A program made the position numbers and the translations under genes. Below, piece after piece: positions 57,064 through 64,000 of a stretch of DNA of 64,000 bases (position 1 is its first letter; each line of letters begins with the position of its first letter). This stretch comes from Candidatus Pseudoscillospira faecavium (GTDB taxonomy: Bacteria > Bacillota > Clostridia > Oscillospirales > Oscillospiraceae). Under the pieces are notes generated by a model. The model was not told the DNA's origin, did no database searches, and was given only the letters and a program-made list of their open reading frames with translations. The stretch is from the NCBI GenBank assembly GCA_904420565.1, contig CAJFVV010000024.1:27111-91110 (forward strand), in the 5' to 3' direction.

Positions 57064-58758
57064 TTAGCATTGTTTCGACAGAGATGCGCGGTATTGCTCT
57101 GCAGCATCCAGCATTTCCCCGGCGCTTTTCAACAGTGCATCGGTGATTTGCGCACCGCCGGTCAGCCGTGCAAGTTCTGCTTTTCTCTGCTCGTGGTCGA
57201 GACATGTAACCTTTGTATAGGTTCTTCCCTTTGACTCCCCTTTCTCCACAGAAAAATGTGCATCGGCCATCGCCGCAATCTGCGGCAAATGTGTGACACA
57301 CAACACTTGCTTGCGCCGTGAAACAGAAGCCATTTTTTCAGCAACCTTCTGCGCTGCACGCCCGGACACCCCAGTGTCCACTTCGTCAAATACCAATGTG
57401 CCCACACGATCATTTTCCGCCAACACATTTTTCAGTGCCAGCATAATGCGTGCCAGTTCGCCGCCGGATGCAATCTTTTGGATGGGACGCAACGCCTCCC
57501 CTGCATTAGCCGACATCAAAAATTGGACCTGATCCTGCCCATCACGCTCCAAGGATTTTTCCATAAACTGAATTTCAAACTGGACTTTTCCCATATTCAA
57601 ATCCCGCAGTTCCGAGAGAATTCTTGCTTGCAGCTGCTCCGCCGCGGCGTGACGCGCCTGCGAAAGTGCCTCAGCCGCAGCTCTGGCTGTTCGCTCTGCT
57701 GCACGGAATTCTTTCTCCAACCGTGCAAATGTATCGTCTGCGTACTGGATTTCATCCAGCTCTTTCTGAGCATGCGCCAAATATTGAATCATGTCTTCCA
57801 CCGTGGGACCGTATTTTTTCTTCAGACGATAAAGCTGATCAATACGACCTTCCACCTCATCCAATTCTTCCGGTGAAAATTCAAACTGTTCTTTTTGGTC
57901 CCGTACCGTTTCTGCAATATCATACAGCTCATGGCGCACATCCACAAGCCGGCCAAGCAGCTCAGAAAAAGTATCGCCAAATTGGCGCACACTGGAAAGG
58001 GCATTTTCTGCTTCCATCACCAAAGATACCGCACCATTGCTCTCTTCTCCGCCATTCAGGCAATAATCTGCTCCTTCAATGGCAGAAATATATTTCTCGC
58101 TGTTGCGCAGCAAATTGCGCCGCTCCAAAAGCCCTTCCTCTTCTCCTTCCTTTAGCTGCGCATGCTCTAATTCCTCAATTTCGTGCTGCAACACATCAAT
58201 TCTGCGTTCACGCTCAAGATCATCCATGCGGATGCTTTCCATTTTGCGCTGCAGCGTCCGCATGGCTTCATATGCCTGTGTATAATGTTCTTTTTTCTCA
58301 TCCGTCATCCCAAAGCTGTCTAAATAGCGAAGATGCTCCCGCTCATCCAGCAGTTGCTGACTATCATGCTGGCCATGAATATTCAAAAGGCCAGCACCGA
58401 GCTGCTTCAACTGTGAAACAGTGCATGGTCGTCCATTGATTCGGCAAACGGATTTTCCATCTGCCTGGATATCGCGCTGCAGCAATAAAGAGCCTTCCTC
58501 ATCCGGTTCGATTCCCTGCTCAGCAAAAACGGAAAGGCACGGATCCACATTGGAAAAAACTGCACTGACAACAGCATGCTCCGCACCGGTGCGCACCAAA
58601 TCCCGGGAAATGCGCTGTCCTAAAACAGCCCCCAGCGCATCGATCACAATGGATTTTCCGGCGCCAGTCTCACCCGTCAGTGCGTTGAAGCCGTTTTGGA
58701 AGGTAATGTCTGCTTTTTCAATGACCGCAATATTTTCAATATGCAAAAGCATCAGCAT
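57064..58758 (-). CDS. recN: DNA repair protein RecN
   Basis: SMC-like ATPase acting early at DNA double-strand breaks. The product is about 564 residues. Walker A is GETGAGKSIVIDALGAVLG near residue 31. A coiled-coil central part (about 150-370) follows. The ABC signature is KIASGGELARIMLALK near 430. Walker B is LVFDEVDTGVSG near 460. The ATG at 58758 follows AAGGAG by nine bases. It closes the oapA-dxs-tlyA-nadK-argR-recN series. Confidence 0.95.
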   Translation of the reverse strand: MLMLLHIENIAVIEKADITFQNGFNALTGETGAGKSIVIDALGAVLGQRISRDLVRTGAEHAVVSAVFSNVDPCLSVFAEQGIEPDEEGSLLLQRDIQADGKSVCRINGRPCTVSQLKQLGAGLLNIHGQHDSQQLLDEREHLRYLDSFGMTDEKKEHYTQAYEAMRTLQRKMESIRMDDLERERRIDVLQHEIEELEHAQLKEGEEEGLLERRNLLRNSEKYISAIEGADYCLNGGEESNGAVSLVMEAENALSSVRQFGDTFSELLGRLVDVRHELYDIAETVRDQKEQFEFSPEELDEVEGRIDQLYRLKKKYGPTVEDMIQYLAHAQKELDEIQYADDTFARLEKEFRAAERTARAAAEALSQARHAAAEQLQARILSELRDLNMGKVQFEIQFMEKSLERDGQDQVQFLMSANAGEALRPIQKIASGGELARIMLALKNVLAENDRVGTLVFDEVDTGVSGRAAQKVAEKMASVSRRKQVLCVTHLPQIAAMADAHFSVEKGESKGRTYTKVTCLDHEQRKAELARLTGGAQITDALLKSAGEMLDAAEQYRASLSKQC

Positions 58759-58777
58759 GGAGCAGCACTCCTTTCCA

Positions 58778-59230
58778 TCATTCAATCATTTTTCGGATAT
58801 CCTCACAAAAATGAAGAGCGCTTTCATTGTCACGCATAATGAGCAGCACCGTATCATCGCCCGCCAGCGATCCTACCAAAACACTGATATTCATATGATC
58901 CAGCGCCGCGCATGCCGCAGATGCCAAACCGGGCATTGTTTTCAGCACAACGATATTCTGTGCGCAATCAAAACTGCTCACACTCTCCCGGAAAATAGTA
59001 CGGAGCTTTCCAGCGTTATGAAAAGTCGCTTTATGCACGGACGCAACATAATGATAGCTTCCACGGCCGGTTTGCTCTTTGATCAAATGCAGCTCCTTCA
59101 TATCTCTGGAGATGGTTGCCTGTGTTACATGCATACCGGCCTCTTTCAATGCCTCCAATAACTGCTCCTGCGTTTCAATCGGCTTTTCCGCAATAATTTC
59201 CAAGATTTTTTCCTGGCGTTTCGTTTTCAT
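58778..59230 (-). CDS. argR: Arginine repressor ArgR
   Basis: Hexameric arginine-responsive DNA-binding protein of 150 residues. The winged helix is in ITEKPIETQEQLLEAL-like N-terminal residues, with the recognition helix TQATISRDMKELHLIK near residue 36. The C-terminal hexamerisation and arginine-binding part has GLASAACAALDHM and LVGSLAGDDTVLLIM with the conserved acidic pair. GGGAG precedes the ATG. It overlaps nadK by four bases. The argR-recN pairing is conserved in Firmicutes. Confidence 0.95.
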   Translation of the reverse strand: MKTKRQEKILEIIAEKPIETQEQLLEALKEAGMHVTQATISRDMKELHLIKEQTGRGSYHYVASVHKATFHNAGKLRTIFRESVSSFDCAQNIVVLKTMPGLASAACAALDHMNISVLVGSLAGDDTVLLIMRDNESALHFCEDIRKMIE

Positions 59231-60106: not shown

Positions 60107-60910
60107 TCAACCTTTCAGCGCAGTATGCGCTGCATCAATGATTTTTGTCAGATCCAGAGATACGGCATCACTGCCAGGTCCCTTTTGCAGAAAACCAAGA
60201 TATTCAATATTTCCTTCCTGCCCGGTGATAGGTGAATAAGTGATATCCAGCACTGAGAATCCTGCATCCGCTGCATTTTTCAGATATTGTTCCAGCACCA
60301 TCAAATGGACTTTGGGATCCCTGACAATTCCTTTTTTCCCCACCAATTCACGTCCTGCTTCAAACTGCGGCTTGACCAGTGTTACCATATGAGCGCCTTC
60401 TTTCATCAGTGCACATACCGCCGGTAAAATCAGTTTCAAAGAGATAAAGGACACGTCAATTGACGCAAAATCCAGCGCATCCGGAATCTGCTCACGATCG
60501 AGATAGCGTGCATTCGTCCGCTCCAAAACGACCACGCGTTCATCGCTGCGCAGTTTCCAGGCAAGCTCTCCATATCCTACATCCACAGAATAGACTTTAG
60601 CCGCACCGTTTTGCAGCATGCAATCCGTAAAGCCTCCAGTGGAAGCGCCAATATCTGCTGTAATTTTTCCATGTAAATCGATGGGAAAAACTTCCATAGC
60701 CTTTTCCAGTTTCAATCCGCCGCGGCCCACATAGCGCAGTGCCTGACCGCGAACCTCCAGCGCAATTGCTTCATCCACAGGCATACCGGCTTTCTCCAGG
60801 CGGCGGTCTCCCGAAAAAATCTGTCCTGCCATAATCATCGCCTGGGCTTTTTGCCTGCTTTCGGCCAATCCACGTTCCGTTACTAATACATCAAGACGTT
60901 TCTTTGCCAC
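60107..60910 (-). CDS. tlyA: TlyA-family rRNA (cytidine-2'-O)-methyltransferase
   Basis: Protein of 267 residues with an N-terminal S4 RNA-binding domain (about 3-60, RLDVLVTERGLAESRQKAQ) and a SAM-binding RrmJ-type domain. ADIGASTGGFTDCML near residue 87 is motif I, and VTLVKPQFEAG near 185 carries a catalytic-site lysine. Mycobacterial TlyA methylates 16S and 23S rRNA. Activity here is inferred. The start is GTG, supported by GGAGG upstream. It overlaps the dxs end by 20 bases. Confidence 0.92.
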   Translation of the reverse strand: MAKKRLDVLVTERGLAESRQKAQAMIMAGQIFSGDRRLEKAGMPVDEAIALEVRGQALRYVGRGGLKLEKAMEVFPIDLHGKITADIGASTGGFTDCMLQNGAAKVYSVDVGYGELAWKLRSDERVVVLERTNARYLDREQIPDALDFASIDVSFISLKLILPAVCALMKEGAHMVTLVKPQFEAGRELVGKKGIVRDPKVHLMVLEQYLKNAADAGFSVLDITYSPITGQEGNIEYLGFLQKGPGSDAVSLDLTKIIDAAHTALKG

Positions 60911-62762
60911 GATGCAATGCCTCCTTCACCGCTGCAGCAATACCCGCTCCATTCAATCCCATACTCTGACGCAACAGCGCAACGCTCCCCTGTGCTGTAA
61001 ATGCAGCACCAAGATTTTTTAAAATCAAATGCTCCGGAATACACCCGCGCTGAGAAAGCATCGATGCAATCCGCTGTCCGACACAGCCGCCTTCTACACA
61101 TTCTTCCAGCACCAGCAGTGCATTCGTTTTGCGAACAGAAGCCTCAATCGCGTCTATATCCAAAGGCTGAATAGTATTCAATTTCAGAATTTCTGCAGCA
61201 ATTCCTTCTATCTCCAGAAGGCCGGCTGCTTCCAGAACTTCATTGATCATCGTTCCATAAGTGAGCAAAGTGAAATCTGTTCCCTGCCGGCAGCACTCTG
61301 ACGCACCACGAGACAACCCATGATAAACGCCTTCCCCTCCGCGGGCATAGCGCACAGCCACAGGGCCTCGCTCCTCCAGGACAGCGCGCTCAATCATGTC
61401 GCGCATCTCCGCAAAACTGGATGGGCAATAGATCGTCATACCCGGTACCTGGCTGAGATACCCGACATCAAAGACGCCATGGTGGGTTTCGCCATCCTCT
61501 CCCACCAATCCGGCGCGATCCACTGCGAAAACAACATGCAGCTGCATCAATGCCACATCATGCAGCAGCATATCATAACCACGCTGCAAAAAGCTGGAAT
61601 ACACCGCAAAAACAGGGATCATTCCCTGGGAAGCCATGCCTGCAGCCATGGCAACAGCGTGCCCCTCTGCAATGCCAACATCGAAAAAACGCTCCGGATA
61701 GTGCTGGGCAAAACGATCAAGCCCGGTTCCGGATTCCATAGCAGCTGTAATCGTGCATACCCGCGCATCTCTCTGCGCAAGATCGCAGAGTGTTTTTCCG
61801 CAGATTTTGCTGAAATTTTCACCTGATGGTTTCAGTGTCAAGCCGGTTTGCGGATCAAATGCAGAAATTCCATGAAATTTATCCGGGTTTTCCTCTGCAA
61901 AAGAATAGCCTTTACCCTTAACAGTATTGACATGAACCACAACCGGTGCGTGCAGCTCTTTTGCCCAGCTCAGCACATGAAAAAGCTGGTCCAGGTTGTG
62001 CCCATCCACCGGACCGAGATACTGAAATCCCATATCCTCAAAAAAGCTGCAGGGCCACAGTGCTTTCTTCAGACTCGTTTTACAGCGATGTACAATCCGG
62101 TAAATGGTTTTTCCGCCCGGCAAATGATGCACTGTATTATGATAAATCTTTTTAAACCGATAGTAGCCGGAACGGGTGCGGATCCTTGCAAGATGACTGG
62201 CCACACCGCCCACATTCCGGCTGATGGACATGCCATTGTCATTTAATATGAGAATGAGCGGTTCCCCGGAAGCCCCTGCATTATTCAGTCCTTCATAAGC
62301 CAAGCCGCCGGTTAAGGCACCATCGCCAATCACAGCAAGAACACAATAATCTGCTCCGCGCAGTGTTCTCGCTCTTGCCATTCCCAAAGCTACAGAAACG
62401 GAGTTGGATGCATGCCCGGCAATAAATGCATCATGTATACTCTCATATGGTTTAGGAAATCCAGATAAACCCTCAAATTTCCGAAGCGTTGAAAACAGCT
62501 CGCGCCGCCCCGTTAAAGCTTTATGCACATAACACTGATGCCCAACGTCAAACACCAGGCGATCCCGCGCCGTATCAAAGACACGATGAATTGCAACTGT
62601 CAACTCCACCGCACCTAAATTGGAGGCAAGATGGCCGCCCGTCTTTGAAACGGATGCCAATAAAAAAGCACGCAGCTCTTCACATAGGTGCTGACATTCT
62701 TCCTGTGATAATTTTTTCACATCTTCAGGACCGGAGATGTGTTCCAAAATTTCAGATTTCAT
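60891..62762 (-). CDS. dxs: 1-deoxy-D-xylulose-5-phosphate synthase
   Basis: Thiamine-diphosphate enzyme that makes the first intermediate of the MEP isoprenoid pathway from pyruvate and glyceraldehyde-3-phosphate. The 623-residue protein has GGHLASNLGAVELTVA near residue 43 and VFDVGHQCYVHK. VIGDGALTGGLAYEGLNNAG near 145 is the ThDP/Mg site. FFDVGIAEGHAV near 362 holds the catalytic glutamate. An upstream GTG at 62771 lies inside the AAAGGTGAG site, so I start at ATG 62762. An ispA gene is not in the window. Confidence 0.96.
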   Translation of the reverse strand: MKSEILEHISGPEDVKKLSQEECQHLCEELRAFLLASVSKTGGHLASNLGAVELTVAIHRVFDTARDRLVFDVGHQCYVHKALTGRRELFSTLRKFEGLSGFPKPYESIHDAFIAGHASNSVSVALGMARARTLRGADYCVLAVIGDGALTGGLAYEGLNNAGASGEPLILILNDNGMSISRNVGGVASHLARIRTRSGYYRFKKIYHNTVHHLPGGKTIYRIVHRCKTSLKKALWPCSFFEDMGFQYLGPVDGHNLDQLFHVLSWAKELHAPVVVHVNTVKGKGYSFAEENPDKFHGISAFDPQTGLTLKPSGENFSKICGKTLCDLAQRDARVCTITAAMESGTGLDRFAQHYPERFFDVGIAEGHAVAMAAGMASQGMIPVFAVYSSFLQRGYDMLLHDVALMQLHVVFAVDRAGLVGEDGETHHGVFDVGYLSQVPGMTIYCPSSFAEMRDMIERAVLEERGPVAVRYARGGEGVYHGLSRGASECCRQGTDFTLLTYGTMINEVLEAAGLLEIEGIAAEILKLNTIQPLDIDAIEASVRKTNALLVLEECVEGGCVGQRIASMLSQRGCIPEHLILKNLGAAFTAQGSVALLRQSMGLNGAGIAAAVKEALHRGKETS

Positions 62763-62805
62763 TGCGCTCACCTTTACTGCTTTCCAAAAACATCACTGCA
62801 GTATA

Positions 62806-63381
62806 TCATTTCCGCCGAATTACATGGAGCACGCGTGCAGCTGTATGCACAACCTGTGTACTGTTGTTAATGGCAATCTTCTTGCCAATGGCTTTTCCTC
62901 CGATGGTAAGACCGGATACCAGCGCAGAAATAAACAGAGAAAGCATCACTGAATCCAAACGAAATGCGCTGCACAGTTTGGATACGATGACCGCAGCCGT
63001 GGAACCGCTGACAATACCGGCGATATCGCCCACCACATCGTTGCATACATTGCTGACCTTCTCTGCATTTCGGATCAGCCGCAGCGCACAAGCAGCGCTT
63101 TTTTCTCCGTGTGCCGCCATGGAATGAAAGGGACGTTCATCGGCCACAGTAACCGAAACACCGACAATATCAAATAAAATACCAATCAAAATAAAAGCCG
63201 CCAGCAGCGAAAAAGCAATAAAATAGCCGGCGCCTTCGAGCACATTGGAAGAAACCAGACTGAACATTGCTGAAATAATAATCGACATCAAAAAAATTTT
63301 GGGAACCCAATAGTCCCGTTTTTGCTTTCCCTTTTCTGCCGGTGTCTGCTTTTTCACCTTGCCCGTTTTAGGGTTATCCAC
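62806..63381 (-). CDS. oapA: OLE-associated membrane protein OapA
   Basis: A 190-residue membrane protein encoded directly after the OLE RNA. In Bacillus halodurans OapA binds OLE RNA and carries it to the membrane. A charged N-terminus precedes helices near 26-46, 51-74, 107-127 and 143-165. NDVVGDIAGIVSG gives an Asp-x3-Asp pair in the third. The C-terminus is basic (RVLHVIRRK). The frame opens at 63408, but TAGGAGG lies seven bases before the GTG at 63381, so I use GTG. The identification rests on position beside OLE RNA and dxs, and on topology. Databases may label relatives CorB-like. Confidence 0.85.
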   Translation of the reverse strand: MDNPKTGKVKKQTPAEKGKQKRDYWVPKIFLMSIIISAMFSLVSSNVLEGAGYFIAFSLLAAFILIGILFDIVGVSVTVADERPFHSMAAHGEKSAACALRLIRNAEKVSNVCNDVVGDIAGIVSGSTAAVIVSKLCSAFRLDSVMLSLFISALVSGLTIGGKAIGKKIAINNSTQVVHTAARVLHVIRRK

Positions 63382-63408
63382 TTGAAGTCCTCCTAAATCA
63401 TAAAACAC

Positions 63409-64000
63409 ATGAGAAAACTAAACAGACGGCAACATCAGAAGTAAATCTTACGGCTTAGGTACGGGTAGGATTTCCCCGTGGAGCACCTCGCGTTTCCACT
63501 CGGCGGTTTCCCTTTAAGCCCCGCGTCAATGCGTCACCGACATTGCGACCCGATTGCCACTTAGTCCGCACTGCAATCCTTCTGATGCCCACGAATCGAC
63601 AGCCTAGGTGTTTTCCACGGCAGCCAGCTCATTTCTTAGCCTCTTTTGCAACTGTGGTTTCAGCAAGCAATCGCACGGCCTCCCTGGCCGGGGATTCCAT
63701 GCGTAGATCTCGCATCCACCACACCCACTCAAGGCAGGCTACTCTGCACATAGCGATAGGGGACGGAGTCGTCCCTTCCGCACCACATTGCAGGTTTCAC
63801 CCTGCTTCGTAATGAGTCACAAGCCCATTCCGGGTTTCCCTTGGCTCATCACAAGAGCAGGTCTCCACGGAAAGCGGGTCGAATTTGCATGCCATTGCAA
63901 GTCGCCCGCAAACCTTAACCCCCAGCATCCACCCCAAACTGGGCGTAAGAAGCAAACACCAGGGACTTCATCGATATGCCCTTCAAAGGATTTTTAGGCC
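63409..64000 (-). ncRNA. ole: OLE RNA (ornate, large, extremophilic)
   Basis: About 590 bases on the minus strand without a coherent ORF but with dense complementary segments, ending just before oapA. Sequence blocks fit the OLE consensus as I remember it. These include GGCGACTTGCAATGGCATGC followed by AATTCGACCCGC and TTTCCGTGGAGACC near 63850-63910, and GTGGAAACGCGAGGTGCTCC near 63475-63500. Position beside dxs and a small membrane-protein gene is the known OLE context. OLE RNA forms a membrane-associated ribonucleoprotein linked to Mg2+, cold and alcohol stress. Its 5' end may lie beyond the window. Confidence 0.88.

Follow-up and report, generated by a model that had tools for sequence, protein, structure and literature searches.

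Does this contig end in the gene for an OLE RNA and, if so, does its host retain the protein partners of that RNA? The stretch of DNA analysed, referred to below as the window, comprises 64,000 nt from Candidatus Pseudoscillospira faecavium, and a first-pass annotation had placed an OLE RNA in its last ≈590 bases. OLE is, to our knowledge, among the largest bacterial RNAs, and we know of no activity for it.

The Rfam covariance model for OLE (RF01071, gathering score 50 bits) matched positions 63410–64000 on the minus strand with a score of 420.8 bits (E = 1e-121), which bears out that placement. The match covers model positions 58–616 and is missing the 5′ side; it is cut at 64000 because the contig, like the window, ends exactly there. 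The missing 5′ end was found on another contig of the same genome, C26, the last 73 nt of which overlap exactly with the start of the window contig. The end of C26 matches model positions 1–130 with 103.9 bits. When the two contigs were merged through the 73-nt overlap, the RNA came to 647 nt, spanning model positions 1–616. P7, P8 and P9 were all present in the covariance-model alignment of the window RNA. No other Rfam family gave a meaningful score over this region, and RF01071 had no match in any of 14 control genomes. The RNA and the genes annotated downstream of it are located as follows:

63410..64000, minus strand: OLE RNA, model positions 58–616; the first 57 positions are on contig C26 (L049 3114–3170)
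63389..63394, minus strand: ribosome-binding site of oapA, AGGAGG, read from the sequence
62806..63381, minus strand: oapA, 191 aa, GTG start, CNNM-like membrane protein, 28 nt after the OLE RNA
60891..62771, minus strand: dxs (TIGR00204, 682.7 bits)
60107..60910, minus strand: tlyA-family rRNA methyltransferase gene (TIGR00478)
58778..59230, minus strand: argR (TIGR01529)
57064..58785, minus strand: recN (TIGR00634)

The lack of a coherent reading frame, also remarked upon at first pass, held throughout 99 full-length relatives, in which stop codons occur in all six frames (median 5–8) and the lengths of the RNA are spread over all residues modulo 3. The region is thus non-coding. The complementary blocks described there were recovered as well: among 162 base pairs predicted from an alignment of 26 relatives, 84 had at least one change on each side with pairing kept, a covariation that is supportive only, because this alignment also served to predict the structure, while the Rfam score is independent. 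Mechanical ORF calling does list ORFs here, as would be expected if the region coded for protein or were random sequence complementary by chance, but the E-value of the RF01071 match, the covariation and the absence of any frame open across relatives reduce that explanation to a practically negligible one. The window RNA keeps 246 of the 249 positions that are conserved in ≥95% of relatives and differs at three. Judged by its sequence, 63410–64000 is a genuine OLE RNA and, together with the part on C26, one of the full-length class.

A "mini-OLE" of 314 nt spanning model positions 1–616 in the genus-mate G002 was rejected, since the G002 contig ends inside OLE. Eleven of 80 public contigs carrying OapA also begin inside OLE (L069, L072, L082, L087, L091, L103, L111, L113, L129, L131 and L133), as does the window contig (at window position 64000). 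OLE appears to be a place where metagenome assemblies repeatedly break, perhaps owing to conserved OLE sequence common to relatives.

The published context of OLE, with oapA and dxs, had been recognized from the window alone, and the gene order matches it: OLE is followed by oapA, dxs, tlyA, an NAD kinase gene, argR and recN. The coordinates given for the membrane-protein gene, 62806–63381, proved exact, with the GTG start 7 nt after AGGAGG. Upstream of OLE, the end of xseA, xseB and ispA could be read by inspection in G002, and C26 of the window genome matches this G002 stretch. The locus is the standard Bacillota cluster ispA-ole-oapA-dxs-tlyA-nadK-argR-recN. We are highly confident that it comprises a full-length OLE gene and oapA in this standard cluster, in an uncultured genus of Oscillospiraceae, and that their products act as the particle expected by homology. 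OLE was found in all three genus members of the collection (the window genome G000, G001 and G002, all metagenome-assembled genomes (MAGs), 78–86% complete) and, across the family, in 41 of 151 genomes. The relative G034 agrees with Papillibacter cinnamivorans in coordinates and score. Among named records, the closest belong to Oscillospiraceae and are for the most part MAGs from gut and rumen, with a few cultured anaerobes, so the doubt that had been cast on the "extremophilic" label was fair. Such a host is unsurprising, since OLE in anaerobic, gut-associated Bacillota has already been published (PMC11332333). Two Oscillibacter-like genomes (L122 2552–4891 and L030 2283–3665) carry a lipoprotein-like gene that separates ole from oapA or comes directly after ole; its 779-aa product in L122 has matches among extracellular solute-binding proteins.

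The membrane protein had been named as OapA, the partner of OLE, and its gene does accompany OLE in nearly all relatives. Public genomes were also searched with OapA as the seed, and each of the 80 loci kept contained OLE as well. Aligned with 27 ole-linked homologues, the window protein is 41–80% identical, the upper figure being that between genus species, in which oapA is intact. The alignment of 28 sequences contains conserved CNDVVGD and GGKA blocks, which are not a published signature. The protein has four long predicted helices, and its predicted fold (pLDDT 87) gave CNNM/CorC structures as the top four PDB matches in Foldseek, with weak E-values of 0.004–0.4; the match to PF01595 (CNNM) was likewise weak and below threshold. 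These scores are weak but consistent with a CNNM-like protein, in line with PMC11332333. The Mg2+ transporters MpfA, CorB and CorC are themselves CNNM proteins, with transmembrane domains that resemble the predicted fold of OapA. They differ in carrying CBS and CorC_HlyC domains, and we rejected an identification of OapA as MpfA because its CNNM match is sub-threshold and both of these domains are missing.

The true MpfA-type gene of the window genome, with CNNM, CBS and CorC_HlyC domains, is located on contig C14. Among the 151 family members, 9 of the 41 genomes with OLE had a strong CNNM match, compared to 100 of the 110 without OLE (Fisher p = 4e-16, uncorrected for kinship), a count made on CNNM alone, CBS and CorC_HlyC having been checked in the window genome only. 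Matches that were only weak were confined to OLE-bearing genomes and are presumably OapA itself. The published anticorrelation between OLE and MpfA is thereby repeated within one family, with the window genus among the exceptions. Since the host keeps an MpfA-type transporter, the function of OLE in it could be partly redundant.

Upstream of OLE, the three genus members have CTTGCATATTTTCAAAAATnTGnTAAAATAt in common, while the surrounding sequence has diverged. More widely, 94 of 96 OLE genes are preceded by a site that fits TTGNNN-(15 to 19)-TANNNT, compared to a mean of 13 in base shuffles. OLE is thus preceded by a conserved promoter-like site in this genus, in agreement with the known picture, as ole of H. 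halodurans likewise has a promoter of its own (PMC9723947). The promoter hexamers of G001 enclose a nearly palindromic stretch (GCATATTTTCAAAAATATGC; L003, about 1425–1450). This near-palindrome is a possible operator; the equivalent stretch is less symmetrical in the other two genus species.

Several sites to which published work assigns a role could be located in the RNA:

63966..63975, minus strand: J4a/5 segment AUCGAUGAAG, conserved in relatives, with the P4a palindrome (region of the OapA site in published work) and the 5′ k-turn strand; functional role from PMC9723947 and PMC12265935
63913..63918, minus strand: J5/6 linker UUAAGG, from alignment A3 and counts
63862..63869, minus strand: J6/7 segment CGUGGAGA, conserved in relatives; the 3′ k-turn strand according to the cryo-EM model (PMC12286853)
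63686..63689, minus strand: tetranucleotide GGCC of the L9.3 kissing loop, GGCC in 97 of 99 relatives; dimer bridge B3 (PMC12286853)
63486..63503, minus strand: P13 hairpin, the OapB site in published work (role from PMC12265935), with a GAAA loop and one base fewer than in most relatives

The partner of J4a/5 in the k-turn is debated, being J5/6 in k-turn 1a and J6/7 in k-turn 1b (PMC9723947, PMC12286853, PMC12054373). J4a/5 and J6/7 were conserved across relatives, while J5/6 varied: in 66 of 98 Oscillospiraceae OLE RNAs, a variable hairpin with a median folding energy of −14.3 kcal/mol takes the place of UUAAGG. As far as can be judged from these sequences, such a hairpin is hard to reconcile with k-turn 1a as published, and its tolerance in most members argues that k-turn 1b, with J6/7 as in the cryo-EM model, would be the general one. 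The window genus has UUAAGG and no hairpin. It may have lost the hairpin, because its nearest relatives on the OapA tree, where its placement is weakly supported, carry one. The 3-nt loop of the k-turn is GAU in 30 of 32 RNAs of the UUAAG type and mixed in those of the hairpin type. A link between the J5/6 type and an AUCGAU palindrome (p = 4e-15 from raw counts) was not significant given kinship; with only 2–3 independent changes on the OapA tree, it is unproven.

We looked elsewhere in the genome for the other two protein partners, OapB and OapC, as had been proposed at first pass; OapC was found and OapB was not. A 94-aa ORF of the L7Ae family right after rpoC has YbxF as its best match (E = 2e-16), by which the window genome has an OapC (YbxF) gene. 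In a relative, G114, an ORF flanked by map and infA was recognized as OapB by its match to 7k9b, the solved structure of OapB (E = 7e-7). The gene occupies this location in all 48 other OLE-bearing relatives in which the interval could be read. It was not found between map and infA in G000, where the interval is 125 nt, or in G002; G001 has no readable map-infA region. Nor was OapB found elsewhere in these three incomplete genomes by tblastn or profile. The Pfam Ribosomal_L14e and KOW models did not find it in these genomes either, its detection having needed a purpose-built profile. In the map-infA interval, G000 and G002 have kept TTGACCAGGAGGGATACGCTTGGCAAAA, which matches the last oapB codons of relatives where they run into infA (GACCAGGAGGGATAAC..TTGGCAAAA) and also provides the ribosome-binding site of infA. 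We take a deletion of oapB in an ancestor of the window genus to be most likely. In seven other OLE-bearing genomes OapB was not detected either, but in these no map gene could be read and the P13 loops are normal, so that their lack of OapB looks like assembly gaps.

Absence of OapB as such is not new, since ≈60% of OLE-bearing species carry it (PMC11332333). The added point is its clean loss in an otherwise uniform family, with a full-length OLE retained. A tie between OapB and OLE in the family was rejected: OapB was found in 31 of 41 OLE-bearing and 72 of 110 OLE-free genomes (p = 0.33). No association would be expected if OapB has other roles. The P13 loop is GAAA in G000 and G001, compared to GYRA in 96 of 99 sequences, and P13 has mismatches in G001. 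The GAAA loop was refuted as a mark of OapB loss by L086, its only other carrier, which has oapB at the usual map-infA location; a missing P13 bulge was rejected as a mark in the same way, because L012, L014 and L015 lack the bulge and have OapB. Since L086 keeps OapB, the change in P13 is suggestive at most.

We lean towards the view that a well-conserved, full-length OLE works here with OapA and OapC and without OapB, after a clean lineage-specific deletion and a change in P13. It is somewhat unlikely, in our estimate, that OapB has instead moved elsewhere in the chromosome and been missed, the particle being entirely standard. OapB is essential for OLE function in H. halodurans (PMC9723947), the genus genomes are incomplete, and the usual location is unreadable in G001, all of which would suit a relocated gene. 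Against it, the tblastn and profile searches were negative in all three genomes, a miss with a chance of about 1% if each is ≈80% complete and the gaps are independent, and the map-infA location holds in 48 of 48 relatives. Decay of OLE, the RNA becoming dispensable in a genus that has lost OapB and has MpfA, would also account for the deletion of oapB, the MpfA-type gene and the altered P13 with its mismatches in G001. This we consider improbable, since the OLE RNAs of two species are 90% identical and both score >400 bits, nearly all family-conserved positions are kept, oapA and the promoter are conserved, and other relatives have OLE, MpfA and OapB together.

Retention of a working OLE with OapA and OapC would imply that OapB is dispensable, or replaced, for a full-length OLE. 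The sequences show an OLE RNA with the structure of its family, the genes for OapA and OapC and a promoter that is conserved, and they show no oapB at the location where relatives have it. Whatever goes further than the genes present and the conservation of their sequences is drawn from homology. On this basis, the 647-nt RNA would be made from its own promoter and fold a k-turn bound by OapC. By analogy with H. halodurans and C. acetobutylicum, it would dimerize through the GGCC kissing loop and be held at the membrane by the CNNM-like OapA, and the three components together would form a stress- and Mg2+-responsive membrane particle. In the best-supported published picture, this particle would tune responses to Mg2+, cold, alcohol and carbon source. 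In the window genus it would do so without OapB, in which case domain 2 of the RNA would fold unaided or with the help of some other factor. The added interest of the locus thus lies not in the presence of OLE, but in the apparently OapB-free full-length OLE, together with the J5/6 hairpin of the family. The former provides a natural experiment on whether OapB belongs to the core of the particle or only assists folding.

Compared with known systems, the window RNA is closest in description to the full-length class of RF01071, with which it shares length, sequence, structure over the whole model, the oapA-dxs context and its own promoter; the genus differs from that class (PMC11332333) in lacking OapB at the usual place and in the GAAA loop of P13, which is one base shorter. 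The OLE variant clades (variant 1 and others) are also largely without OapB, and in variant 1 the OapB site in P13 is often missing; in contrast to the variants, the window RNA is full-length with P7–P9, and only OapB is missing, OapC being kept. The H. halodurans OLE complex includes an OapB gene, which was not found in the incomplete genomes of the window genus, and a bS21 site with an anti-Shine-Dalgarno mimic in P6; this mimic, CCUCC in the 3′ strand of P6 (63862–63900), is absent here and in all 60 scorable relatives. The OapA of H. halodurans (PMC12265935, PMC9723947) is, as here, a CNNM-like transmembrane protein of about 21 kDa encoded just after ole, and in these respects no difference was found. 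The OapC gene and the k-turn strands J4a/5 and J6/7 of the H. halodurans complex both have their counterparts in the window genome by sequence.
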